In this document: in pieces, positions 5,880 to 40,382 of the stretch
How the letters are laid out: each line of letters begins with the position of its first letter
Position numbering within the stretch: the stretch's first letter is position 1
Origin: Halosolutus halophilus
GTDB taxonomy: Archaea; Halobacteriota; Halobacteria; Halobacteriales; Natrialbaceae
Length of the DNA: 64,000 nt
NCBI RefSeq assembly: GCF_022869805.1
Contig: NZ_CP094974.1
Span: 1,550,001 to 1,614,000 of the forward strand
Direction: 5' to 3'
Translations under genes and position numbers: made by a program
The notes under the pieces: model-generated
Told to the model about the DNA's origin: nothing
Database searches by the model: none
Seen by the model: the letters and a program-made list of their open reading frames with translations, nothing else

Positions 5880-8036
5880 TCACTGGAGTTCGCGTTCGAT
5901 CGTCGCGCGCCGATCGCGAATCGCGGCCGCGTCGGTCGTGATCGACCGGCCGGCCTCGATCGTGAGTCGGCCGTCGGCCGTCGCCGATCCGAGTTCGTGG
6001 ACCGGCGCGACGCCGTCGAACGCCTCACGGACCGCGTCGGGCGATTCGGTCTGGACGAGTGCTCGGCCCGGCTGTTCGTGAAACAGCGCACCCGCCGGAT
6101 CCGCGCCCGGAATCGTCACCTTGAGCCCCGCGTCCTCGCCGACCATTTCGGCGAGTGCGACGGCCAGGCCACCGTGACTGACGTCGTGAACCGCGCGCGT
6201 CGCGTCGTGGTTCGCGACGCTCACGAGCGCCTCGACGACGGCTCCCGGGTCGTCCGGCAGGGTGGGGAACCGATCGCTGCCGTCGAACTGGGCGAGATAC
6301 TCCGACCCGCCGAGTCGGAGGTCACCGGTCTCGAGGCCGACGTCGCCGACGAGCAGCAGCGTTCCCTCCGGGACGACGGAAAGCGGCGGCGCGTCGTAGC
6401 CGTCTTTCGTCCCCACCATCGCGAGCGTCGGCGTCGGCGGGATCGGTCCGGCCACCGAATCGTTGTACAGCGAAACGTTCCCACCGACGACGGGCGTCGA
6501 GAGCGTCTCGCACATATCCGCGAGTCCGCCGACGATCCCCTCGAAGTCGCCGTAGACGTCCGGTTTCTCGGGGTTGCCGCCGTTCAGGCAGTCGACCGCA
6601 GCGAGCGGCGTCGCGCCTTTGGCCGCGATGTTCGTCGCGTTCTCGAGTGCGATCGCTCGCGCGCCCTCGTAGGGGGCGGCAGTGGTCCAGTTGGGCGCGC
6701 CACCGGACGAGATCGCGAGCCCCTGTTCGGCCTCTCGGACCGCAATAATTGCGGCATCGTCACCCGGCCCGACGCTCGTTCGGACGCCGACCTCGTGATC
6801 GTACTGGCGGTAGACCCACCGCTTCGAGGCGGTATTCGGACTGGAGACGACCGCGTCGAAGGCCGCTTCGAGATCCGCGTCCGGCAGCTCCGTCTCCGGC
6901 TCGTCGGGCACCTCGCTCTCGAGGTCGTTCATCGGCGCGCCTTCGCCGAGGAAGTACGCGTCGACGTCCACGACGGTCTCACACTCGAATTGGCACACGT
7001 AGTTGCCGTCGGTGACCTCGCCGATGACCGAACAGCCGAGATCGAACCGATCGGCGACCTCGCGGACGCGATCGACGTTCTCTGGGGCGACCTCGTAACA
7101 CATCCGCTCCTGGGATTCGGCCAGCAGGATCTCCAGTGCCGACATGTTCGGCTCCCGCTGGTGAACCCGTTCGAGTTCGATGCGGGCGCCGAGGCCGCCC
7201 TTGGCGACCAGTTCGCTCGAGGCACCGCCGAGGCCGGCCGCACCGAGGTCGCGCGCGGACTCGATCAGTCCCTCGTCGACGAGGATCTCGTTGGCCTCGA
7301 TGAGCAACTTCTCCGCGTAGGGGTCGCCGACCTGGACCGCGGGCCGGTCTTCGGTCTCGGCGTCCTCGGCGAGATCCTCGCTGGCGAAACTCGCACCGCC
7401 GAGGCCGTCGCGACCGGTCGCGTTCCCGACGAGTACCAGTTTGTTCCCGGGTTCCTGGGCTTCGGCCGTGACGAGTCGCTCCTCGCTCGTGAGGCCGACG
7501 CAGGCGACGTTTACCAGCGGGTTCCCCTCGTAATCGGGGTGAAAGTCGACGCTCCCGGCGACCGTCGGCACGCCGATACAGTTGCCGTAGTGGCTGATCC
7601 CCTCGACGACGCCCTCGAAGAGGTACTTCGAGTGTTCGCGATCGAACTCGCCGAAGTACAGCGAGTCCGCGAGCGCGATCGGGTACGCGCCCATCGAGAG
7701 GGTGTCCCGGACGATGCCGCCGACGCCCGTCGCCGCGCCGTCGAACGGGTCCACGTAGGAGGGGTGGTTGTGGCTCTCGATGCCCATGGTGATGTACGTC
7801 GAACCGTCCCCGTCGTCGTCGGCCTTCTCACCCGGAAGCGCGACGACTGCCGCGTCGTCGCCCGGCCCCACGACGACCTGCTCGCCCTCGCTCTCGAACG
7901 CCGACAGCAGCGGTCGGGAGGAGCGGTACGCGCAGTGTTCGCTCCACAGGTTCTCGAACAGCGCCGCCTCCGCCGGCGTCGGCTCCCGGTCCAACTCCGA
8001 GGCGACGAGTTCGCGGTCCGAATCGGCAAGACTCAT
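5880..8036 (-). CDS. purL: Phosphoribosylformylglycinamidine synthase subunit II (small-type PurL)
   Basis: The 718-residue protein is the stand-alone PurL of the PurLQS complex of archaea and Gram-positives. It uses ATP and PurQ-derived ammonia to convert FGAR to FGAM in de novo purine synthesis. Visible family features are the N-terminal [15 protein letters not shown] segment, [10 protein letters not shown], the [10 protein letters not shown] segment with its catalytic His, and a second half repeat ([21 protein letters not shown]). Length is typical of the small form. No purQ or purS is in the window. The start ATG at 8036 is directly followed by an [11 protein letters not shown] sequence usual for haloarchaeal PurL. 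Confidence 0.97.
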
Positions 8037-17529: not shown

Positions 17530-18996
17530 ATGATCGACGCACTCAACCGACGACGGTTCGCGGACTTGCTCGCGGGAACGACGATCGCGGCGTACGTCCT
17601 CGTCGCGCTCGGGACCGCCGTCTCGACGACCGACGGCGCAGCGACGTGTACGACCTGGCCGGCCTGTTCGACCGATCCGACGCTCGGCTCGCTCTCCGGC
17701 GACCGCCTCCTCTTCTGGGGCCACCGCGCGGCAGCCCTCGTGACCGGCCTCCTCGTCGCCGCGTCTGGACTCGCCACTCGGCGGGTCGATGTCGATCGCC
17801 GGGTCGCCGGCCTCGTCGGCAGCGCGGTCGTCCTCTTTCCCGTACAGGTCGTCCTCGGTGCTGCGATCGTCGTCGGTGGCCCCGCCGTCGCGAACCGACT
17901 CCACCTCGCGCTCGCGATGGTCATCTTCGCCAGCCTCCTCGTCGCACTCGTGGTGACGCTCGAGGACAGTGCGCGCGGGGCGTCGACCGGTTCGAGATCA
18001 CCCGAGCAAGGCGGTTCGAGAACCCCCGAGCGAGCGACGACCGGTTCGGAAACGAGCGCCGATGCCGGAACCGGAGACGGTCCGATCGCGACCGATCGGC
18101 CGAGCGACGGAATCGCCCGTCTGCGGCGAACGGTCGGCGCGTACCTGACCCTCACCAAACCGAAGTTGATGTGGCTGCTCTGTCTCGTCGCGCTCGCGGG
18201 GATGGGGCTGGCGACGCTCACCGGCGCGGCGCTGGACCCGACGACGGCGGTCGCGACGCTCGCCGGGGGCGTCCTCGCGATCGGCGCGAGCGGGACGTTC
18301 AACCACGTCTACGAGCGCGACCGCGATCGGCGGATGAACCGGACGGCCGACCGGCCGCTGGTCCACGACCGCGTCCCGGCCCGGAACGCCCTGGCCTTCG
18401 GCGTCGCGCTGGTCGTCGCGTCGATGACCGTCCTCGTGTGGTGGGTCAACGCGCTGGCTGCGGTACTGACGCTCGCCGCGATCGGCTACTACGCCGTCCT
18501 CTACACCGTGGTGTTGAAGCCGAACACGGCCTGGAACACGGTACTCGGCGGCGGTGCTGGGGCGCTCCCCGCGCTCATCGGATGGGCGGCCGTCACCGGA
18601 AGCGTCGGCGCGCCCGCGATTGCCCTCGCCGGGGTGATCTTTCTGTGGACGCCCGCCCACTTCTACAGCCTCGCGATCGCCTTTCGTGACGATTACGCGC
18701 GCGGCGGCTTCCCGATGTATCCCGTCGTCGAAGGAGTGCTCGCCGCGCGTCGACACGTCGCGTTCTACCTCGGCGCGACGCTGCTGGCCACGAGCGTCCT
18801 CGGCTGGCTGGCCGGCCTCGGCTGGGTCTACGCGACGACCTCCGTCGCCCTCGGTGCCGTCTTCCTCCGGTCGGTGATCCGTCAGTACCGCGTTCCGACC
18901 GACGAGGTCGCGCTGCGCTCGTTCTACGCCTCGAACTACTACCTCGGCGCGATCCTCCTCGCGATCGTCCTCGAAACGCTCGTGATAGCCGCGTAG
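17530..18996 (+). CDS. ctaB: Fused half-size heme A synthase (CtaA/COX15) and protoheme IX farnesyltransferase (CtaB) (488 aa)
   Basis: Residues 1-140 hold four membrane helices with a Cys pair (CTTWPAC) and His residues (WGHRAAA, LHLALAM) typical of one half of COX15/CtaA; compact half-size heme A synthases are known in archaea. A 60-residue charged linker leads to a UbiA-type prenyltransferase (about 205-488) with the Asp-rich motif NHVYERDRDRRMNRT and the second motif FRDDYARGGFPM of CtaB. The protein would make heme O, and perhaps heme A, for the heme-copper enzyme at 23223-25667. It sits between the DUF2249 genes and nirK, tying heme synthesis to this respiratory cluster. Confidence 0.9.
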   Translation: MIDALNRRRFADLLAGTTIAAYVLVALGTAVSTTDGAATCTTWPACSTDPTLGSLSGDRLLFWGHRAAALVTGLLVAASGLATRRVDVDRRVAGLVGSAVVLFPVQVVLGAAIVVGGPAVANRLHLALAMVIFASLLVALVVTLEDSARGASTGSRSPEQGGSRTPERATTGSETSADAGTGDGPIATDRPSDGIARLRRTVGAYLTLTKPKLMWLLCLVALAGMGLATLTGAALDPTTAVATLAGGVLAIGASGTFNHVYERDRDRRMNRTADRPLVHDRVPARNALAFGVALVVASMTVLVWWVNALAAVLTLAAIGYYAVLYTVVLKPNTAWNTVLGGGAGALPALIGWAAVTGSVGAPAIALAGVIFLWTPAHFYSLAIAFRDDYARGGFPMYPVVEGVLAARRHVAFYLGATLLATSVLGWLAGLGWVYATTSVALGAVFLRSVIRQYRVPTDEVALRSFYASNYYLGAILLAIVLETLVIAA

Positions 18997-19146: not shown

Positions 19147-20244
19147 ATGAAGATCATGATTCCAACCGATACCAACCGACGGCGGTTCCTGCAAGCGATG
19201 GGCGCGGCCGGTGCGGTCGCAGTTGCCGGCTGTACGGGTACCAGCGAGCCGGCCGACACGAGCAGCGACGACGAAGAGGACGCAGACGAGGGGCTACCGC
19301 CGGCGAAGGACGTCGACGTCGACCGGATCGCTCGCGATCCGACCGACATTCCGGACCCGGTCGACTGGGACGAGCCCCGCGAACACGACATCACGATCCA
19401 GACCGAGCGCGTGGTCGCCGAAATCGAGCCCGGCGTCACCTTCGAGTACATGACCTTCGAGGGGCAGGTGCCGGGACCGATGATCCGGGTCCGCCGGGGC
19501 GATCGGGTCAATCTCACGTTCGACGTCCCCGACGACCTGAACGTCGCCATGCACAACATGGACTTCCACGCGGTCTACGGCCCCGGCGGCGGCGCGGACG
19601 CCACGACGATCGCGCCGGGTGACGATCCCACCGAGATAAGCTTCACGGCCGACTACGCGGGCGTGTTCATCTACCACTGTGCGGTCCCGAACATGGACCA
19701 GCACATCAGCGCCGGCATGTTCGGCTCGATCCTCGTCGAGCCCGAAGACGGTCTCCCCGAGGTCGACAACGAGTTCTACCTCGGCCAGCACGAGATCTAC
19801 ACCGACGGCGAGGTCGGCCAGGAGGGCCACCACGGCTTCGACTTCGACGCGATGCAGAACGAAGAGCCGACGTACGTGGTGTTCAACGGCCAGGCCTACG
19901 GCTTCACCGAGGACGGCGTCGGGCCGATGGAAGCCAACACGGGCGAGACCGCGAGGGTCTACTTCGCCAACGGCGGCCCGAACCTCCTGAGTTCCTGGCA
20001 CCCGATCGGCAACGTCTGGAGCAACTTCTACCGCGACGGGGACCTGCTCTCCGAACCCGACCAGAACATCGAGACGGCCCCGGTCGCCCCCGGGACGACC
20101 TCGGCCGGCGAGATGGAGTTCCCCGTCCCCGGCCCGGTCAAGATCGTCGACCACGCGCTCAGTCGCGTCGTCCACAAGGGCGCGCTCGCCGTCGTCGACG
20201 TCGCCGGCGAGGAGAACCCCGAAATCTACGACGAGGATCCGTAA
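19147..20244 (+). CDS. nirK: Copper-containing nitrite reductase NirK, copy 1 (365 aa)
   Basis: Reduces nitrite to NO outside the cytoplasmic membrane. A Tat motif (NRRRFLQAMG) and lipobox Cys29 mark it as a Tat-exported lipoprotein. Two cupredoxin domains follow. Type 1 Cu ligands are His136, Cys178, His186, Met191. Type 2 ligands are His141, His177, His336. Catalytic Asp139 and His285 are in place, so it should be active. It is followed by a cupredoxin gene that may donate electrons and by SCO1. It has a close paralogue at 34922-36007 with blocks of identical DNA. A low-complexity acidic linker (residues 38-50) joins the lipid anchor to the first domain. Confidence 0.95.
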   Translation: MKIMIPTDTNRRRFLQAMGAAGAVAVAGCTGTSEPADTSSDDEEDADEGLPPAKDVDVDRIARDPTDIPDPVDWDEPREHDITIQTERVVAEIEPGVTFEYMTFEGQVPGPMIRVRRGDRVNLTFDVPDDLNVAMHNMDFHAVYGPGGGADATTIAPGDDPTEISFTADYAGVFIYHCAVPNMDQHISAGMFGSILVEPEDGLPEVDNEFYLGQHEIYTDGEVGQEGHHGFDFDAMQNEEPTYVVFNGQAYGFTEDGVGPMEANTGETARVYFANGGPNLLSSWHPIGNVWSNFYRDGDLLSEPDQNIETAPVAPGTTSAGEMEFPVPGPVKIVDHALSRVVHKGALAVVDVAGEENPEIYDEDP

Positions 20245-20307: not shown

Positions 20308-20895
20308 ATGACACTCACGTCCCGCCGTACCGTGCTTCGATCGTCCGCGCTCGCGATCGGGGTCGCCCTCGGGGGCTGTCTCGAGGACGCTGCCGACCGG
20401 TCGAGCGGCGGCGGCGAGCAACCACCCGAGAACGCCGGCGAACTGGGAACCCCCGCCGAACGGATCACGGTCACGGCGAATTCCCAGCCGTACCCCGAGT
20501 TCGAACCGCAGATCGTCCACGTGGCTCCCGGCGGGACCGTCGAATGGCTCGTCGAGACGGGCCGCCACGACGTCACCGCCTATCACGAGGACGGCCACGG
20601 CCCCCATCGGACGCCCGACGGCGTCGAGCCCTGGGGCAGCGATCGGATGACCGGCGTCGGATCGGAGTACGAGCGCACCTTCGATCGCGAGGGCGTCTAC
20701 GACTACGTCGACACCCAGCAGGTCTGCACCTCCCACGAGATCGCCGGCAATATCGGCCGCGTCGTGGTCGGCTGGCCCGACCCCGACGACGAACCCGCGA
20801 TGGCCGACCCCCAGCCGGAACTCCCCTCGCAGGCCGCCCGGGCGATCGAAATGTTCAACGAGGAGACCCGGCCGGTCCTCCAGGACGGGCCGTGA
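20308..20895 (+). CDS. Halocyanin-like blue copper lipoprotein with Asn at the axial-ligand position (195 aa)
   Basis: A Tat motif (SRRTVLR) and lipobox Cys24 precede a single cupredoxin domain. Copper ligands visible are His87 (GRHDV), Cys140 and His143 (VCTSHE). The residue eight after Cys140, where plastocyanin and pseudoazurin have the axial Met, is Asn148. The site may therefore be a modified type 1 centre of altered potential, or may not bind copper stably. It lies directly after nirK1 and before SCO1. It could shuttle electrons from the quinol-oxidising complex to NirK or the heme-copper enzyme. A 35-residue C-terminal tail after the domain is not family-typical. Confidence 0.85.
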   Translation: MTLTSRRTVLRSSALAIGVALGGCLEDAADRSSGGGEQPPENAGELGTPAERITVTANSQPYPEFEPQIVHVAPGGTVEWLVETGRHDVTAYHEDGHGPHRTPDGVEPWGSDRMTGVGSEYERTFDREGVYDYVDTQQVCTSHEIAGNIGRVVVGWPDPDDEPAMADPQPELPSQAARAIEMFNEETRPVLQDGP

Positions 20896-21068: not shown

Positions 21069-21878
21069 ATGACCCCCACATCCACACCCGTCGACAGGCG
21101 AACGTTCCTGCGCGCGGCGGGCGCGACGGCGATCGGCGCGTCCCTCGCTGGCTGTTCGCAACTGACCAGTTCCGGCAAAGCTGAGGACGGCCTCGTCCTC
21201 GCCCCGCCGGAGAACCACGACCGGATCGAGAACGCGGACCTCCCGCACCCGATCTACGGGGATGCGATCCCGGAGGCGACCGTTCCGGCCCCGCTGCACG
21301 ATCGGGCGGTCACGACCACGGAGTTCACCGGTGAGCGTCACCTGATGCTGACGTTCATCTACACTAGCTGTACGACCGTCTGCCCCGGCCTGACCGCGGC
21401 CCTGCGGCGCGTCCAGGACGATGCCCACGAGGAGGGATACGAGGACGAAATCGCGTTCCTCCCGATCACCTTCGACCCCGAGTACGATACGGCCGAGGTC
21501 CTCGAGTCCTACGGCGAGGACCACGGGGTGGACTTCGACGCCGGCAACTGGTACTTCCTGCGGCCGGAGTCGCCCGAGGACGCCAAGGCGGTCGTCGAAG
21601 ACACGTTCGGCGTGGCGTTCGAACGGGGCGAAATGGAAGACGACGAGACGGAAGACGGCGACGAGATGGACGGCGACGACGAGATGGACGGCGACGACGA
21701 GATGGACGGCGACGACGAGATGAGCGACGATCACGGCGATCACGCTCGCCACTTCGTCCACGCGTCGCTGATCCTGCTCGTGAACAAGGATGGCTTCGTC
21801 GAACGGGCCTACACGGGCGGTTCTCCGGGCGGCAACGAGATCGTCGAGAGCGCCCGCGCCGTCGTCGAGGGGTGGTGA
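21069..21878 (+). CDS. SCO1/SenC-type copper chaperone lipoprotein (269 aa)
   Basis: Tat motif (DRRTFLRAAG) and lipobox Cys29 show export and lipid anchoring. The thioredoxin-fold domain has the SCO copper motif C-T-T-V-C-P (Cys101, Cys105) and a distal His in HFVHASLILLVNKDG. SCO proteins insert copper into the CuA site of heme-copper enzymes, here presumably the subunit at 23377-23916. Between the conserved strand and the distal His there is a low-complexity acidic insertion of repeated DEMDGD units and His residues (DDHGDHARH), probably a copper-buffering loop. The gene is followed by thioredoxin-like and CcdA genes that could keep its Cys pair reduced. Confidence 0.9.
   Translation: MTPTSTPVDRRTFLRAAGATAIGASLAGCSQLTSSGKAEDGLVLAPPENHDRIENADLPHPIYGDAIPEATVPAPLHDRAVTTTEFTGERHLMLTFIYTSCTTVCPGLTAALRRVQDDAHEEGYEDEIAFLPITFDPEYDTAEVLESYGEDHGVDFDAGNWYFLRPESPEDAKAVVEDTFGVAFERGEMEDDETEDGDEMDGDDEMDGDDEMDGDDEMSDDHGDHARHFVHASLILLVNKDGFVERAYTGGSPGGNEIVESARAVVEGW
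21657..21725 (+). repeat. In-frame 18-base tandem repeat in the SCO1 gene
   Basis: About three and a half copies of an 18-base unit (gacgacgagatggacggc) encode the repeated acidic-Met hexapeptide DDEMDG. It is in frame and therefore open to copy-number change without destroying the protein. Confidence 0.8.
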
Positions 21879-21881
21879 ATC

Positions 21882-22412
21882 GTGCGCCGTCGCGAGGTCC
21901 TCGCGGGAGCCGCTGGCCTCGCCGCCCTCGGCGGCGGCGCGATCGCCGTCGGCGAGTGGAACCCCCTCGACGACGGCGCGGCCGTCGACCCGATCGAACT
22001 CGAGACGATCGACGCGCCGGGGAGCGAGGCCGGCACCGCGACCGTGCCCGAACGCGGCCGGGTGACGTTCGTCGAACTGTTCGCCACCTGGTGTACCGTC
22101 TGCGAGGGGATGATGGAGCCCCTCGGACGGGTTCACGAGGACGTCGATGAGGACGTGCAGTTCGTCTCGGCGACCAACGAGCCGATCGGCAACACCGTCA
22201 CCCGCGAGGACGTCGCGGACTGGTGGCGCGAGCACGACGGCAACTGGCCGGTCGCCATCGATCCCGATCTCGAACTGACGGAAGCGCTCGACGGCTCCGG
22301 GGTGCCGTACGCGTTCGTCCTGGACGCGGACAACGTCGTGACCTGGTCCGGACGGGGGCAAAAGTCGGCCGACGAGATCCGATCGGCCATCGACGACGCC
22401 GGAGGTGAGTGA
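21882..22412 (+). CDS. TlpA/ResA-like membrane-anchored thioredoxin (176 aa)
   Basis: GTG at 21882 starts a protein with an RRREVLAGAAGLAALGG export signal and one thioredoxin domain with active site W-C-T-V-C (ATWCTVCEGMM). TlpA-type proteins reduce the Cys of SCO1 and of the CuA site during oxidase assembly. It starts three bases after SCO1 and its end overlaps the ccdA reading frame, so the three are one operon: copper chaperone, its reductant and the membrane electron supplier. Confidence 0.88.
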   Translation: MRRREVLAGAAGLAALGGGAIAVGEWNPLDDGAAVDPIELETIDAPGSEAGTATVPERGRVTFVELFATWCTVCEGMMEPLGRVHEDVDEDVQFVSATNEPIGNTVTREDVADWWREHDGNWPVAIDPDLELTEALDGSGVPYAFVLDADNVVTWSGRGQKSADEIRSAIDDAGGE

Positions 22413-23076
22413 CGTGGCGGGCGGCGAACTCCTCGGGACGATGCTGTTCGCCCTCGGCATCGGCGTGGCCACGTTCTTCTCGCCGTGTGCGTACGCGCTG
22501 TTGCCCGGCTACGTCGGCTACTACGTCGCCGCGACCGGCGAGGAGACGACCCCGCCGCTGTCCGGCACGCTCGCTCGCGGGGTCGCGGCCGCCGTCGGCG
22601 CGGTGAGCGTCCTCGGCACACTCTCGATCGCCGCGGTCGTCGCCGGCGAGACGGTCGGACGGGCGTTGCCCCTGCTCGAATACGGCGTCGGCGTCGCGTT
22701 GATCGCGCTCGGCCTGTGGGTGCTGTACGGCGGGAGCGGGGCCGTTCACGTCCTCCTGCCCGAGCGCCGATCGACCGTCCTCGGATTCGCGCTCTTCGGC
22801 GCGATGTACGCCCTCGCGGCGACGGCCTGCGTCCTTCCGCTGTTCCTGGGACTGGCGTTTCGCTCGCTCACCATGCCCCCGCTCGAGACGGCGCTGGTGC
22901 TCGGAACGTACGCCGTCGGGTTCGGTGCGCTCACGGTCGCGGTCACGGTCGCGACGGCGTTCGGGTACGCCCTCGGGGCCGGTCGCATCGCCGGCTACGT
23001 CGATCAGGTAATCCGCGTCGCGGGGGTCGTCCTGGTGATCGCCGGCGCCGGTCAACTGTACGTCGCCGCGGTCTGA
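22405..23076 (+). CDS. ccdA: CcdA-type thiol-disulfide interchange membrane protein (223 aa)
   Basis: Six predicted membrane helices with the two conserved Cys in FFSPCAYALLPGY and ATACVLPLFLG, the redox pair of CcdA/DsbD-beta. It carries reducing equivalents from cytoplasmic thioredoxin to the external TlpA-like protein encoded just upstream. GTG at 22405 overlaps the preceding gene by eight bases; an alternative GTG at 22414 is also possible. Its place between tlpA and the heme-copper enzyme genes supports a role in CuA or cupredoxin assembly. Confidence 0.88.
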   Translation: MSDVAGGELLGTMLFALGIGVATFFSPCAYALLPGYVGYYVAATGEETTPPLSGTLARGVAAAVGAVSVLGTLSIAAVVAGETVGRALPLLEYGVGVALIALGLWVLYGGSGAVHVLLPERRSTVLGFALFGAMYALAATACVLPLFLGLAFRSLTMPPLETALVLGTYAVGFGALTVAVTVATAFGYALGAGRIAGYVDQVIRVAGVVLVIAGAGQLYVAAV

Positions 23077-23222: not shown

Positions 23223-23372
23223 ATGCCTCCGTCACACTCGAGTGAATCGGCACCGGTGATGCAACGACTCTACGATCGGATTTGGCTACTCGCGGCAGCA
23301 GCGCTCGCGTTCTTCGCACTCTCGTACGTCGCGTGGGGCTGGATCGACGTGTTTTCCGTTCCGATGGGGTGA
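23223..23372 (+). CDS. 49-residue single-helix membrane protein at the head of the heme-copper operon
   Basis: ATG at 23223 begins a short frame with a polar N-terminus (PPSHSSESAPVMQRLYDRI) and one membrane helix (WLLAAAALAFFALSYVAWGW). It ends four bases before the subunit II gene. B-type heme-copper enzymes of Thermus and of Natronomonas (cbaD) have such one-helix small subunits, so this is probably the equivalent subunit IIa. Codon use is strongly biased to G/C at third positions, which supports coding. The 146 bases upstream hold the likely operon promoter with a GAATATGTAC element at 23165. Confidence 0.75.
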   Translation: MPPSHSSESAPVMQRLYDRIWLLAAAALAFFALSYVAWGWIDVFSVPMG

Positions 23373-23376
23373 TTCG

Positions 23377-23916
23377 ATGACGTCACCGATCAAACCCCCG
23401 GACGGCAACTGGTGGAATCAACCGATCGACAGACGGGAGTCCATCTGGCTCGGACTGGGCGTCGGCTGGTCGCTCATCCTCTTCGGCTGGATGAGCGCCT
23501 GGACGCGCGTCGGCGACCAGAACCCCATCGGCGAGACGTTCCGCGTCGAGAGCGACGAGTACCGCGAGAAGATGGACGCCTACAAGGAGGAAGCCACCGA
23601 GACCGAGGACGGTCTCGTCCCGCCGGGCACCGACGTCTACATCAACGCGATGCGCTTCCAGTGGGACGGTGCGCCGGTCGTGCTCGAGGCCGGAACCGAG
23701 TACGATATCCACCTCAGTTCCATGGACGTCCAGCACGGCTTTTCCCTCCGACCGGAGGAGGCGCTCAGCAAACAGATCAACCTGCAGGTGCTGCCGGGCT
23801 ACGAGTGGGTCGTCCCGATGACGTTCGATGAACCCGGGACCTACCACATCATCTGTAACGAGTTCTGCGGCCAGGGCCACAGGACGATGCACGGAACGAT
23901 CGTGGTGGAGGAGTGA
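23377..23916 (+). CDS. Heme-copper enzyme subunit II with CuA centre (179 aa)
   Basis: One N-terminal membrane helix (residues 24-43) anchors an external cupredoxin domain with a complete CuA site: His120, Cys160, Glu162 (backbone), Cys164, His168 and Met171. It therefore accepts electrons from a soluble or lipid-anchored donor, probably a halocyanin-like protein, and passes them to subunit I encoded next. Short single-helix subunit II proteins are usual for B-family enzymes. It overlaps no gene but follows the 49-residue protein by four bases. Confidence 0.93.
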   Translation: MTSPIKPPDGNWWNQPIDRRESIWLGLGVGWSLILFGWMSAWTRVGDQNPIGETFRVESDEYREKMDAYKEEATETEDGLVPPGTDVYINAMRFQWDGAPVVLEAGTEYDIHLSSMDVQHGFSLRPEEALSKQINLQVLPGYEWVVPMTFDEPGTYHIICNEFCGQGHRTMHGTIVVEE

Positions 23917-23921
23917 TACCG

Positions 23922-25667
23922 ATGGCACACACACTCGACGTTCTCGGCCTGTTCGACAACGAGTATCGAGACGACGGCTTCCGGACCTGTTCGGTGACCG
24001 GTCTCGAGGTGCACCGCTCCGTCGAAAACCACGTCAAACTGTTCGGTCTCACGGCGGTCGTCGCCCTCCTGTACGGGGGCATCTTCGCGTTCACCGTCGC
24101 GATGACCCGCTGGGAAGTGATCGGCCTGCTCGAGCCCGACGCGTTCTACACGCACCTCAGCCTGCACGCGTGGAACCTGCTCATCTTCTGGATGGTATTC
24201 ACGGAGATCGCCATCCTCTACGTCGGCGGCCCGATGGTACTCGGCAGACGGCTGCCGCTCACGAGGGTCGCGAAGGCCGGATGGCTCGTCATGGTCGGCG
24301 GGGCGGTCCTGGTCAACTACGCCATCTGGACCACCGAAGCACCCAACGAGGCACCGCTTCTGACCGCTTACGTCCCGATGCCGGTTTCGCCGCTGTTCTA
24401 CGCCGGGGCGTGCGTCTTCATCCTGGGTACCGTGGTCGCGGCGCTCCCGTTCTTCGCGACGATGTGGTACGAGAAGCGGGAGAATCCGGGGAAGACGCTC
24501 CCGCTCGTCAGTTTCGCCGCGTTCGTCACGTCGATCATCGCCGTCGAGGCGCTGGTCGGCGGCCTGCTGGCGTTCGGTCCCGCCCTGCTGTGGCGGCTCG
24601 AGTTGATCCAGTGGTGGGACGCCGCCTGGTACCGCCAGATGTACTGGATCATCGGGCACGGAACCCAGCAGATCAACCTCGTCGCGATGATCGCGGTCTG
24701 GTACTTCCTGACCCACGTCGTCGCCGGCGCGGAGGTCGTCAGCGAGAAGGTCTCGCGGACGGCGTTCATCCTCTACCTGTTCTTCATCAACCTCGGGGCG
24801 GCACACCACCTGCTGTCGGATCCCGCGGTCTCGACCGGCTGGCGCATCTGGAACACGTCCTACGCGTTCTACGGCGCGACGTTCGCGAGCCTCATCCACG
24901 CGTTCGCCATCCCGGCCGGGATCGAGGCCGGTCGCCGCAAGCGCGGGAAAGGCGGCGGCCTCTTCGGCTGGCTGACGTCGGCCCCGTGGACGAACCCGGT
25001 GTTCTCGTCGACGATCTTCTCGATCATCCTCTTCGGCTTCCTCGGCGGGATCACGGGCGTCATGATGGGACAGCTCCAGCTCAACATGACCTGGCACAAC
25101 ACGTTCGCGACGGTGGGCCACTTCCACGGAACGGTCGTCCTCGGGACTACGGTCGCGTTCATGGGCCTGATCTTCTTCGTGATCCGGACCATGTTCATGC
25201 GCCAGTACGTCTCCGAACGGCTCGCGTCGATCCAGCCGTTCTTCTACTCGGCCGCGATGGGCGTTGCCGTCCTGATGATGATGTACGTCGGCATCCTCTA
25301 CGGCATCCCGCGCCGGACCGCCGAGGTCGTCGAGAACATCCCCGGCACCGAGTTCAGCCTCTCGGCCGCCTCGCCGCTGTTCGCGATTTTCGGGATCTTC
25401 GCGCTGCTGGCTATCGCGGGCGGCGTCCTCTTCGTCCTCGTCTCGGTCGGCTCGCTGGTCTTCGGCGATCGCGTCGAGAACGGGGACGACAACGCCGATC
25501 TCGTCGCGGACGGCGGCCTCGGGATGGCACAGGACCCCGACGACCCCGTCCACGCCTACGAGATGCGCGGCACGTTCGTCCTCTGTCTGATCTTCCTCGC
25601 CGCGTTCGTGATCACCTACCTGCTGAACTGGTACCTGCTGACCCAGCTCTGGTCGATCGGCGCCTGA
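23922..25667 (+). CDS. Heme-copper enzyme subunit I, probable CuA-type nitric oxide reductase (eNOR-like) (581 aa)
   Basis: About 13 membrane helices. Low-spin heme ligands His82 (SLHAWN) and His402, high-spin heme ligand His400 (GHFHG), and CuB ligands His246, His295 and His296 (AAHHLL) are all present. The CuB helix reads G-H-G-T-Q-Q instead of the G-H-P-x-V-Y of B-type oxygen reductases, so Gln250 replaces the cross-linked catalytic Tyr. That Tyr is needed for O2 cleavage, while NO-reducing members lack it. With a CuA subunit II and nirK next door, NO reduction to N2O is the best reading; a divergent ba3 oxidase is the alternative. ATG at 23922 is favoured over GTG 23913 by the GGAGGAG at 23907-23913. 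Confidence 0.85.
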   Translation: MAHTLDVLGLFDNEYRDDGFRTCSVTGLEVHRSVENHVKLFGLTAVVALLYGGIFAFTVAMTRWEVIGLLEPDAFYTHLSLHAWNLLIFWMVFTEIAILYVGGPMVLGRRLPLTRVAKAGWLVMVGGAVLVNYAIWTTEAPNEAPLLTAYVPMPVSPLFYAGACVFILGTVVAALPFFATMWYEKRENPGKTLPLVSFAAFVTSIIAVEALVGGLLAFGPALLWRLELIQWWDAAWYRQMYWIIGHGTQQINLVAMIAVWYFLTHVVAGAEVVSEKVSRTAFILYLFFINLGAAHHLLSDPAVSTGWRIWNTSYAFYGATFASLIHAFAIPAGIEAGRRKRGKGGGLFGWLTSAPWTNPVFSSTIFSIILFGFLGGITGVMMGQLQLNMTWHNTFATVGHFHGTVVLGTTVAFMGLIFFVIRTMFMRQYVSERLASIQPFFYSAAMGVAVLMMMYVGILYGIPRRTAEVVENIPGTEFSLSAASPLFAIFGIFALLAIAGGVLFVLVSVGSLVFGDRVENGDDNADLVADGGLGMAQDPDDPVHAYEMRGTFVLCLIFLAAFVITYLLNWYLLTQLWSIGA

Positions 25668-25727: not shown

Positions 25728-26447
25728 ATGACACACTCCGACGCCGACGCGACCGCATCGCCCCTCGAGTTCGTCAGCCGAATCCTCGGCCAGGCCTGGC
25801 GGGACTTGCTGAGCGTTTACTACGCGAACACGCCGATCTGGCGGCTGCTCAAGAGCGTCGGGTTGCTCTTTTTCGGCTTCTTCTGCTGGTCGGCGTCGAA
25901 CCTCGTGCTCTCCTACGGGATCGACTGGACGATCCTCCGATACACTCGCTCATACGGATTCGTCCTCATCCTCTGGGGGCCGCTGACCCACGCCGTGATC
26001 GTCCCGCTCGTGATCCGCCTCCGGCGGAGCGCCCAGACCCCGACCCTGCGGACGATCGCCCGCCAGGGTTCGAAGATCAACATTTCGATCTTCCTGGCGA
26101 TCGTCCTCGTGCTCGGGACGTTCCCCGTCGGGCCGATGACGCTCGACTTCCAGACGACCCTCCAGGGCGGGTCGGGATCGGACGTGAATCCCGACCTGCT
26201 GTGTACCCGCTCGGACGGGGAGATCCACTGCCACCTCTCCGAGTCCGAGGGGATCGACCACGTCGTCGTGACGAGCGGCGACCGCGAGGTCGAACGAGTC
26301 GACGAACCGCCGTTCGAGTTCACGATACGGGAGGACAACCTCGAGGAGGTGGTCGGCCAGCAGGAGTTCGTCGTCGAGTTGCAGGACGAGGGCGGCGACA
26401 CGATCCGCCGATACCGTCGGTACGTGTCGTCGATCCCCGAGACCTAG
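25728..26447 (+). CDS. Conserved membrane protein with external domain, linked to heme-copper operon (239 aa)
   Basis: Three hydrophobic segments lie at about residues 38-65, 75-95 and 110-135. An external C-terminal domain of about 100 residues contains a Cys pair (LLCTRSDGEIHCHL) and a beta-rich pattern. It follows subunit I after 60 bases on the same strand. It is not a recognised heme-copper core subunit. It could be an assembly factor or an extra subunit (position of cbaE in Natronomonas-type operons), but homology to CbaE cannot be shown by eye. Function unknown. Confidence 0.7.
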   Translation: MTHSDADATASPLEFVSRILGQAWRDLLSVYYANTPIWRLLKSVGLLFFGFFCWSASNLVLSYGIDWTILRYTRSYGFVLILWGPLTHAVIVPLVIRLRRSAQTPTLRTIARQGSKINISIFLAIVLVLGTFPVGPMTLDFQTTLQGGSGSDVNPDLLCTRSDGEIHCHLSESEGIDHVVVTSGDREVERVDEPPFEFTIREDNLEEVVGQQEFVVELQDEGGDTIRRYRRYVSSIPET

Positions 26448-30813: not shown

Positions 30814-31095
30814 ATGCAGTCACCCTCGTCCGTCATCGACCGCACCGACGCACCGTCCGATCGCCCGCCCGAGGTGATCGACGTCCGCACGCTCGGGCCG
30901 CCGGAACCGCTGAAGGAGACGCTCGAGACGCTCGCCGACCTCGACGCCGAGACGGTCCTGGTCCAGCGCAACGATCGCGCGCCGCAGTTCCTCTACCCGA
31001 AACTCGACGACCGCGGCTACGCCTACGAGACCGTCGACCTGGACGACGAAGTCGTGACTGTCATCTGGCAGGAGGACTTCGAGGAGACCCGCTGA
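30814..31095 (+). CDS. DUF2249 domain protein (93 aa)
   Basis: After a 20-residue leader the DUF2249 pattern appears: VIDVRTLGPPEPLKETLETLADL, then VLVQRNDRAPQFLYPKLDDRGY, ending VVTVIWQEDF. No Cys is present. It is the third such gene in 14 kb, and like the others it stands near a copper or nitrite gene and has a NarO-type site upstream. DUF2249 proteins accumulate around denitrification genes, and their molecular role is not known. Confidence 0.82.
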   Translation: MQSPSSVIDRTDAPSDRPPEVIDVRTLGPPEPLKETLETLADLDAETVLVQRNDRAPQFLYPKLDDRGYAYETVDLDDEVVTVIWQEDFEETR

Positions 31096-34921: not shown

Positions 34922-36007
34922 ATGACCCAGACCACAGCAAGTCGACGGCGGTTCATACAGGCGATCGGCGCAACCGGCACAGTCGCGATCGCCGGGTGTG
35001 TCGGCAGTGACGTCGGCGCGTCGGAGAACAGCACCGAGACCGAGGACGAGGAGGGACTGCCCGCGGCGAAGACTGTGGACGTCGACCGGATCGCTCGCGA
35101 TCCGACCGACATTCCGGACCCGGTCGACTGGGACGAGCCCCGCGAACACGACGTCACCATCCGGGCCCAGGACGTAACCGCCGAGATCGAACCCGGCGTC
35201 ACGTTCGACTTCATGACCTTCGAGGGGCAGGTCCCCGGTCCGATGATCCGGGTCCGCCAGGGCGATCGGGTCACCCTCCGGTTCGAGGTTCCGGAGGACT
35301 CCAACATGGCCATGCACAACATGGACTTCCACGCGGTCTACGGCCCCGGCGGCGGGGCAGAGGCGACGACGATCGCACCAGGAGACGACGCCGCGGAGAT
35401 CGCCTTCACGGCCGAGTACGCCGGCGCGTTCATCTACCACTGTGCGGTCCCGAACATGGACCAGCACATCAGCGCCGGCATGTTCGGCTCGATCCTCGTC
35501 GAGCCCGAAGACGGACTCCCCGAGGTCGACAACGAGTTCTACCTCGGCCAGCACGAGATCTACACCGACGGCGAGGTCGGCGAGGAAGGACACCACAGCT
35601 TCGACTTCGACGCGGTGATGGAGGAAAACCCCACCTACGTGGTGTTCAACGGCCAGGCCTACGGCTTCACCGAGGACGGCGTCGGGCCGATGGAAGCCGA
35701 GGTCGGCGAAACTGCGCGGGTGTACTTCGCCAACGGCGGTCCGAACCTCCTGAGTTCGCTCCACCCGATCGGCAACGTCTGGAGCAACTACTACCGTGAC
35801 GGGGACCTGCTCTCCGAACCCGACCAGAACATCGAGACGGCCCCGGTGGCACCTGGAACGACCACGGCCGGCGAGATGGAGTTCCCCGTCCCCGGCCCGG
35901 TCAAAATCGTCGACCACGCGCTCAGTCGCGTCGTCCACAAGGGCGCGCTCGCCGTCGTCGACGTCGCCGGCGAGGAGAATCCCGACGTCTACGACGAGGA
36001 ACCGTAA
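34922..36007 (+). CDS. nirK: Copper-containing nitrite reductase NirK, copy 2 (361 aa)
   Basis: Tat motif (SRRRFIQAIG) and lipobox Cys26 lead into two cupredoxin domains. Type 1 Cu ligands His132, Cys174, His182 and Met187, type 2 ligands His137, His173 and His332, and catalytic Asp135 and His281 are all present. It differs from copy 1 (19147-20244) mainly in the first 50 residues and at scattered positions, while several stretches are identical in DNA, pointing to recent duplication or gene conversion. It has its own promoter with a NarO-type site and no neighbouring cupredoxin gene, so the two copies may be used under different conditions. Confidence 0.95.
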   Translation: MTQTTASRRRFIQAIGATGTVAIAGCVGSDVGASENSTETEDEEGLPAAKTVDVDRIARDPTDIPDPVDWDEPREHDVTIRAQDVTAEIEPGVTFDFMTFEGQVPGPMIRVRQGDRVTLRFEVPEDSNMAMHNMDFHAVYGPGGGAEATTIAPGDDAAEIAFTAEYAGAFIYHCAVPNMDQHISAGMFGSILVEPEDGLPEVDNEFYLGQHEIYTDGEVGEEGHHSFDFDAVMEENPTYVVFNGQAYGFTEDGVGPMEAEVGETARVYFANGGPNLLSSLHPIGNVWSNYYRDGDLLSEPDQNIETAPVAPGTTTAGEMEFPVPGPVKIVDHALSRVVHKGALAVVDVAGEENPDVYDEEP

Positions 36008-39089: not shown

Positions 39090-39548
39090 TCCGGGCGGCC
39101 AGGACAGTGCCTGACCGGAGACCGGTCGTCGCACCGGACCGGCCCGATCGGAGACGGTGTTCTGACACCGGTGCGACCGATTTCCACGGCGGACGCCCCA
39201 CTGGAGAGGGCGTTCGCGAAGATCGGACGGAAGGACGAACGTGCGCGGTCTGCACCATCCGATCCCGACGAGGAACGTGCTGCTCGAAAGGTCCACAGGC
39301 GACTGATCGAGGTCATCGACGGCGACGGTTTCTACTACAACCGGGATCGGGAGTCGCTCGTTCTGATCGAGCGATTCGCCCCCACGCAGCGACATCGACG
39401 ACCGTCCATCACCGGAACTCGCTTTCTGAGTCCGGACACCGCGATCGATTCGTCACCGCATCGTTCTCTCGCGCCCGATGTGAGTGAGGAGGGATCGTTC
39501 GAGAGCACCGCCGCTCGGCGTCGTGGGCATCGGAGCCACGGCGTATTC
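39090..39548. other. Region between gatA and the FNT gene, possible gene remnant
   Basis: A frame open from a GTG at 39171 runs without stop into the FNT gene. Its part at about 39200-39375 has coding-like codon use and a plausible protein (RKVHRRLIEVIDGDGFYYN, then RESLVLIERF). After that the translation becomes Arg/Ser-rich and non-protein-like. This may be a decayed gene or chance; no family is recognised. A TATA-like tract (agtataatt) at 39574 lies inside the annotated FNT start region. Confidence 0.3.
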
Positions 39549-40382
39549 ATGTCCCGCGCTTATCTGTCAGCGAAGTATAATTGTTCCGTGCCCGTCGCAC
39601 CAGATCCTGCCGAGATATTCGACCGAACGGTCGACGAAGGTGAACGGCGACTCAACCAGTCACTGCTCGAACTCGCGGCGACCAGTTTCATCGCGGGCTT
39701 CACGATCGTCTTCGGCATCGCCGCGCTCGGGGCCGTCGACGCAATGGTCGAGCCACAGTTCGGTGACGTCGCGCATATCGCGGCCGCACTCACGTTCGGT
39801 ATCGGCGTCGTCTTCCTGGTCGTCGGTCGAACGGAGCTGTTCAACGAGAATTTCGTCGCTCCGGCCGCGAAGGCGGTCGATCAGTCCGGATCGTGGATGC
39901 TCTCGTCGCTCGTTCGCCTGTGGACCGTCACTCTCGTATTCAACCTCGTCGGCGGGTTCCTCTTCGCACTCGTCTTCGCTGTCGATGGCGTCCTTCCCTC
40001 GGGGTCGGCACACGCGCTGGGGGAGACCGCCGAGGTGATCGTCAACCGGCCGATGCGAGCAATGTTCGGGAGTGCCATCGTGGGGGGCGCGCTCGTGAGT
40101 TTACTGTCCTACCTTCTGGAGGCCGTCAATAGCGTCCGGAGTCGCATCACGTTGGCCTACACCGTCGGATTTCTGTTGGCCCTCGGACCGTTCGATCACG
40201 TCATCGTCACTGCGATCCACGTCTTTTTCGGACTTCTCTTCGATGCCGAGATCGGCTACGGAGCGCTGTCCGAGACGATCGTCGTCTCGACTGCGGGAAA
40301 TTTCGTCGGCGGACTCGGTCTGATCACGTTCACCCACGTCGCCCAGGTACACGGGGCGCGAACCTCGGACGAAACACGATAG
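39549..40382 (+). CDS. Formate/nitrite transporter (FNT) family channel (277 aa)
   Basis: Six membrane helices in the FNT arrangement: SLLELAATSFIAGFTIVFG, RTELFNENFVAPAAK (the conserved broken-helix segment) and the VSTAGNFVGGLGLITF end. FNT proteins carry nitrite, formate or hydrosulfide. In an organism with two nirK genes nitrite transport is plausible but unproven. The start is uncertain: ATG 39549 gives a 13-residue leader; GTG 39588, beginning (M)PVAPDPAEIFDRTV, fits family N-termini better, and a TATA-like tract lies just before it. Confidence 0.85.
   Translation: MSRAYLSAKYNCSVPVAPDPAEIFDRTVDEGERRLNQSLLELAATSFIAGFTIVFGIAALGAVDAMVEPQFGDVAHIAAALTFGIGVVFLVVGRTELFNENFVAPAAKAVDQSGSWMLSSLVRLWTVTLVFNLVGGFLFALVFAVDGVLPSGSAHALGETAEVIVNRPMRAMFGSAIVGGALVSLLSYLLEAVNSVRSRITLAYTVGFLLALGPFDHVIVTAIHVFFGLLFDAEIGYGALSETIVVSTAGNFVGGLGLITFTHVAQVHGARTSDETR

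Follow-up and report, generated by a model that had tools for sequence, protein, structure and literature searches.

A nirK-linked haem-copper enzyme of Halosolutus halophilus with glutamine at the site of the cross-linked tyrosine: a probable eNOR-type nitric oxide reductase

The locus and its neighbourhood

The window analysed here is a stretch of 64,000 nucleotides from the haloarchaeon Halosolutus halophilus. Three co-directional genes at 23223-25667 encode, in this order, a 49-aa peptide, a CuA-bearing subunit II and a haem-copper subunit I, with gaps of 4 bp between the first two and 5 bp between subunit II and subunit I. The coordinates of the locus and its genes held on re-examination, as did the presence of a copper nitrite reductase gene beside it: nirK lies 3.7 kb upstream of subunit I, with halocyanin-, SCO-, thioredoxin- and CcdA-like genes between the two. 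The features considered are as follows.

17530-18996, + strand: CtaA-CtaB fusion, haem o synthase
19147-20244, + strand: nirK, copper nitrite reductase (above the TIGR02376 cut-off), putative source of NO
20308-20895, + strand: halocyanin-like blue copper protein, candidate electron donor
21069-21878, + strand: SCO1/SenC-like protein, putative CuA assembly factor
21882-22412, + strand: TlpA/ResA-like thioredoxin
22405-23076, + strand: CcdA/DsbD-like membrane protein, named by inspection (no Pfam match)
23223-23372, + strand: small membrane subunit, 49 aa, single-helix; directly precedes subunit II in haloarchaeal and bacterial loci of this type
23377-23916, + strand: subunit II, CuA cupredoxin, 179 aa, with H120, C160, C164, H168, M171 and E21
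23922-25667, + strand: subunit I, probable eNOR type, 581 aa, Pfam COX1 match; start ATG at 23922
24666-24671, + strand: codons for Gln249-Gln250 within the GHGTQQ motif, read from the sequence
25728-26447, + strand: conserved partner protein, 239 aa, with a helical membrane part and an outer Ig/FN3-like domain, C159 and C168
27456-29933, - strand: copper P-type ATPase, which adjoins most haloarchaeal loci of this type
30814-31095, downstream of subunit I: DUF2249 protein
34922-36007, + strand: second nirK
39171-40382, downstream of subunit I: formate/nitrite transporter

With the second nirK, the formate/nitrite transporter and the DUF2249 protein, the region resembles a nitrogen-oxide island.

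Bacterial loci encoding the same kind of enzyme, hereafter called Gln-type after the residue discussed below, repeat the order of small peptide, subunit II and subunit I, the peptide being recorded there as an unnamed hypothetical CDS. On Thermus plasmids the neighbours of the locus include nirS, a multicopper-oxidase/cupredoxin protein, an Rrf2-type regulator and DUF542, and in the Defluviimonas and Thermomicrobium loci a haem o synthase gene follows, accompanied in Defluviimonas by SCO and a hemerythrin-family protein.

The host genome (contig C1) encodes seven full-length haem-copper enzymes: two A-type, two ba3-type, two Gln-type and one qNOR with a NorB cytochrome c-like domain. It thus holds four Tyr-type oxygen reductases, alongside two nirK and a nosZ over cut-off; a search of this genome for bacterial-type narG (TIGR01580) gave no match over cut-off. 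Upstream of the second Gln-type copy, L011:9087-10439 encodes a membrane protein of 450 aa that matches COX1 weakly and has HxH pairs and no CuB His pair, and a similar protein may lie near 6000 in another locus (L015).

The active site and the Gln clade

Subunit I matches the Pfam COX1 family (PF00115) at 175 bits, its sole Pfam domain shown, and falls far below the cut-off of the NCBIfam oxidase equivalog CtaD/CoxA; Pfam and NCBIfam are unable to separate eNORs from oxidases. That automatic annotation would call such proteins cytochrome oxidase was borne out for the bacterial relatives, whose records read 'b(o/a)3-type' or 'cbb3-type cytochrome c oxidase subunit I'.

The original prediction counted six haem and CuB histidines and a full CuA site, and the alignment agrees on both: subunit I has low-spin haem ligands H82 and H402, high-spin haem ligand H400 and CuB ligands H246, H295 and H296, and subunit II has H120, C160, C164, H168 and M171. 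The CuB helix reads H246-G247-T248-Q249-Q250, in which Gln250, at His+4 as first described, corresponds to Tyr237 of ba3, the site of the cross-linked Tyr that helps to split O2. Our scan of named genomes found 31 haloarchaeal relatives with 68-95% identity (from Natrinema, Halovivax, Halobiforma, Halorubrum, Halopenitus, Natronomonas and others), every one of which reads GHG[TS]QQ. The second copy in the host genome (C1:3436297-3438018) is 74% identical with the motif HSTQQ, and relatives encoded on plasmids of Thermus thermophilus, Thermomicrobium roseum and Defluviimonas, at 38-41% identity, carry H-[GS]-[AS]-Q-Q. Taken together, the 36 listed relatives all have Gln where the Tyr would be (H-[GS]-[TSA]-Q-Q), and the 12 B- and A-type comparators all have Tyr there. 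Q250 is invariant across the 14 haloarchaeal and four bacterial Gln-type sequences of the alignment, and the Q249-Q250 pair stands where every B-type oxidase compared, including the host's two ba3 enzymes and the Thermus ba3, has V-Y. Gln250 is, on this distribution, a family trait and not a chance difference.

The best relative among the solved structures is the B-family ba3 of Thermus thermophilus (phmmer E about 1e-33), which shares with our enzyme the six His and a CuA subunit II. Glu21 of subunit II aligns with the proton-entry Glu15 of ba3 and is kept in 22/22 subunit II sequences, in which the CuA ligands are conserved as well; the other K-channel positions conserved by alignment are S274, S323 and Y261, the last two being the equivalents of ba3 Ser309 and Tyr248. 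Unlike in ba3, Tyr237 is replaced by Gln250, Val236 by Gln249, Tyr244 by Ile257 and Thr312 by His326. The last of these is invariant in the Gln clade and belongs to a set of positions (E95, N252, Y285, N311, Y314 and H326) that are fixed there and differ from the B-type oxidases.

At the position aligned with H402, the proteins of the Thermus thermophilus plasmids pTF24b (L050) and pHB5018d (L061) have Lys (GHFK), all others reading GHFH, which suggests altered haem ligation in both Thermus Gln-type proteins.

We looked for a Tyr that might stand in for the missing one by alignment alone, because the AlphaFold model of subunit I, made from 25 close relatives, is too poor for distances (mean pLDDT 62, with the CuB and K-channel helices and residues 262-354 below 50). 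The alignment has no Tyr at His+4 of helix VI. Nor does it have one at what we take to be the position of the C-family (cbb3) helix-VII Tyr, six residues ahead of the CuB histidine pair, where our enzyme has Ile289. The Gln clade has two invariant Tyr of its own: Y285 on helix VII, a helical turn more distant from the histidine pair than that presumed cbb3 position, and Y314 on helix VIII. The CuA subunit also sets the enzyme apart from the C-type (cbb3) oxygen reductases, which have no CuA.

In 2024 Murali and colleagues reportedly characterised a NO-reducing eNOR from Rhodothermus marinus. Our subunit I tree (30 sequences, LG+C20, IQ-TREE) comprises 18 Gln-type proteins, 11 Tyr-bearing B-type enzymes and a single A-type outgroup, and contains no bNOR, sNOR, gNOR, nNOR or verified eNOR reference, that of R. 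marinus included. Haloarchaeal Gln-type proteins and those of Thermus, Thermomicrobium and Defluviimonas fall together in a single clade (support 100/99; recovered in 100% of bootstrap trees), and the 11 Tyr-bearing B-type enzymes, including the solved Thermus ba3, form a separate group (94/93); a placement among proven O2 reductases, which would have spoken against the original prediction, was thus not found. The single A-type outgroup is attached by a long root branch, so we make no claim about the order of the Gln and Tyr groups.

Co-occurrence with nirK and a constant partner gene

We surveyed 292 haloarchaeal genomes of at least 90% completeness, drawn evenly from the class. The Gln-type enzyme occurs in 53 of them (55 copies), nirK over cut-off in 156 and qNOR in 163. 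Nearly all Gln-type genomes carry nirK (50/53, three lacking one over cut-off), as against 106/239 of the others (odds ratio 21, Fisher p 1.5e-12, kinship ignored). Since related genomes are not independent, the comparison was repeated within two genera. In genus g2, which includes a genome matching Natrinema altunense, nirK is found in 9/9 genomes with the Gln type and 0/7 without it (p 9e-5); the corresponding figures for genus g28 are 5/5 and 5/30 (p 8e-4). At least 17 of the 55 copies have nirK inside 15 kb. Furthermore, 16 genomes combine nirK and the Gln type with no qNOR match, leaving the Gln type as the only haem-copper NOR found there. The qNOR has been named as the only haloarchaeal NOR (PMC8400030), a view with which these 16 genomes disagree.

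The gene for the 239-aa protein was found in 54/292 genomes and lies just downstream of 54/55 haloarchaeal Gln-type copies, the exception being a copy cut by a contig end (G034). Outside Gln-type genomes we found only two fragments of it (G036 C2:672537-672878 and G281 C1:2742477-2742854), which are probably left over from an operon since lost. Neither the bacterial loci examined, which represent three lineages, nor the plasmid collection contains the gene. Some 1.1 kb separates it from subunit I in about ten genomes (G023, G042 and G127 among them), room for another gene. The protein has no match in Pfam or NCBIfam. Its AlphaFold model (mean pLDDT 85) shows helices in the membrane part and seven strands in the outer domain; C159 and C168 are invariant. 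Foldseek returned weak Ig/FN3-like matches to the outer domain (best E 1e-3, query TM 0.27), and because these are weak we claim no family for it. The simplest reading is that it serves as a haloarchaea-specific eNOR subunit or assembly factor. No description of it turned up in the literature covered, which does not extend to the primary eNOR paper (PNAS 2024) and its supplement.

A probable eNOR and the alternatives

The eNORs are E-family haem-copper NO reductases (Hemp and Gennis 2008; PMC8756737; Murali et al. 2024), defined, according to PMC8756737, by Gln at the Tyr site and a CuA subunit encoded upstream. According to the same source they were reported in Natronomonas and then across other Halobacteria, and are often mislabelled cytochrome c oxidase. 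An eNOR has been biochemically characterised, according to a passage of PMC11388526 that cites Murali et al. (PNAS 2024), and in Ardenticatena an eNOR shares an operon with nirK (PMC4653789). Our locus resembles these systems in its Gln for the cross-linked Tyr, in the CuA gene immediately upstream and in its link to nirK. It differs from the Gln-type loci of the three bacterial lineages examined in having the 239-aa partner gene, and the 49-aa subunit goes unmentioned in the portions of the eNOR descriptions consulted.

We therefore regard the locus as a well supported member of the known eNOR family, and it very probably encodes a CuA-bearing, membrane-bound nitric oxide reductase of the eNOR type, much as the original prediction had it. 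This reading rests on sequence features, the clade, synteny and co-occurrence, from which we infer the activity, the donor, the proton uptake and the role of the partner. NO reduction in particular is supported by the published Gln diagnostic, by linkage to and co-occurrence with nirK and by the 16 genomes in which the Gln type is the only NOR found. The assignment as such is not new, because eNORs in Halobacteria were already reported (PMC8756737); our additions are the co-occurrence statistics for haloarchaea, the genomes that lack a qNOR match, the conservation of the small peptide and the ever-present partner gene.

In the mechanism that we propose, the nearby NirK would supply NO, and electrons would pass from the halocyanin, the candidate donor, to CuA of subunit II, on to the low-spin haem and then to the haem/CuB site of subunit I, where two NO would be converted to N2O and water. 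The enzyme would be specialised for NO because the invariant pair Q249-Q250 replaces the cross-linked Tyr. An eNOR is predicted to have one K-type proton channel. Protons would probably come from the cytoplasm through a modified B-family K-channel, in which Glu21 of subunit II, Ser323 and Tyr261 are kept, the invariant His326 takes the place of ba3 Thr312 and Gln250 that of the Tyr at the channel end. The SCO, thioredoxin-like, CcdA-like, copper ATPase and haem o synthase genes may serve to build the metal centres.

Other readings have to be weighed against this one. The enzyme could be a divergent B-type O2 reductase in which Y285 or Y314 serves as the radical Tyr, like the helix-VII Tyr of cbb3. 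We consider this very improbable: the place that the cbb3 Tyr presumably takes is held by Ile289, with Y285 a turn further out, the host already has its four Tyr-type oxygen reductases, and an oxidase would not readily account for the linkage to nirK. It is true that both residues are fixed in the Gln clade and are not Tyr in the B-type oxidases, and that C-family oxygen reductases do carry their cross-linked Tyr on helix VII and not on helix VI (PMC3084760), but the characterised eNOR reduces NO (PMC11388526). Assignment to bNOR (CuANOR), sNOR or gNOR, likewise CuA- or cupredoxin-bearing relatives of the B-type, is hardly credible, as these have Asn (sNOR, and CuANOR such as that of Bacillus azotoformans) or Asp (gNOR) at the site according to PMC8756737, whereas all relatives of our enzyme have Gln.

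Somewhat unlikely, yet the more serious contender, is a bifunctional or detoxifying enzyme that removes NO, and perhaps O2, under micro-oxic conditions and does not serve denitrifying growth. The slow reduction of NO by B-type ba3 oxidases (PMC8780969) would fit it, as would the statement in PMC11388526 that eNOR reduces NO under micro-oxic conditions, and the host's possession of a qNOR plus two Gln-type copies. The two nirK and nosZ of the host, however, fit respiratory denitrification. This alternative differs from an eNOR of denitrification in its physiology and posits the same catalytic activity.

The qNOR (NorZ), the NOR usually named for haloarchaea, shares the superfamily and NO reduction with the eNOR and differs in being a single chain with a NorB cytochrome c-like N-terminal domain and no CuA subunit. 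It is encoded elsewhere in the host genome, so that the Gln-type enzyme is not the host's only NOR. In general, cNOR and qNOR have an active-site Glu, with a NorB cytochrome c-like domain or a NorC partner; that identity was ruled out for the window protein, which has Gln at the site and only the Pfam COX1 domain.

A further proposal joins two statements: that the haloarchaeal eNOR is a four-subunit variant, in which the 239-aa protein is an obligate subunit or a factor in assembly (it might, for instance, bring halocyanin or NirK to the CuA domain), and that eNOR is the sole respiratory NOR in a sizeable minority of denitrifying haloarchaea. For the two held jointly, we find the scales evenly balanced.

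Since 16 of the 156 nirK-bearing genomes have the Gln type and no qNOR, surveys based on qNOR alone (PMC8400030) would overlook the step that forms N2O in these organisms and take it for aerobic respiration. As a constant companion, the partner gene offers a marker for the haloarchaeal eNOR and a new candidate subunit. Finally, the Gln clade represents a natural Tyr-to-Gln change on a B-type scaffold, which may prove useful for probing the role of the cross-linked Tyr.
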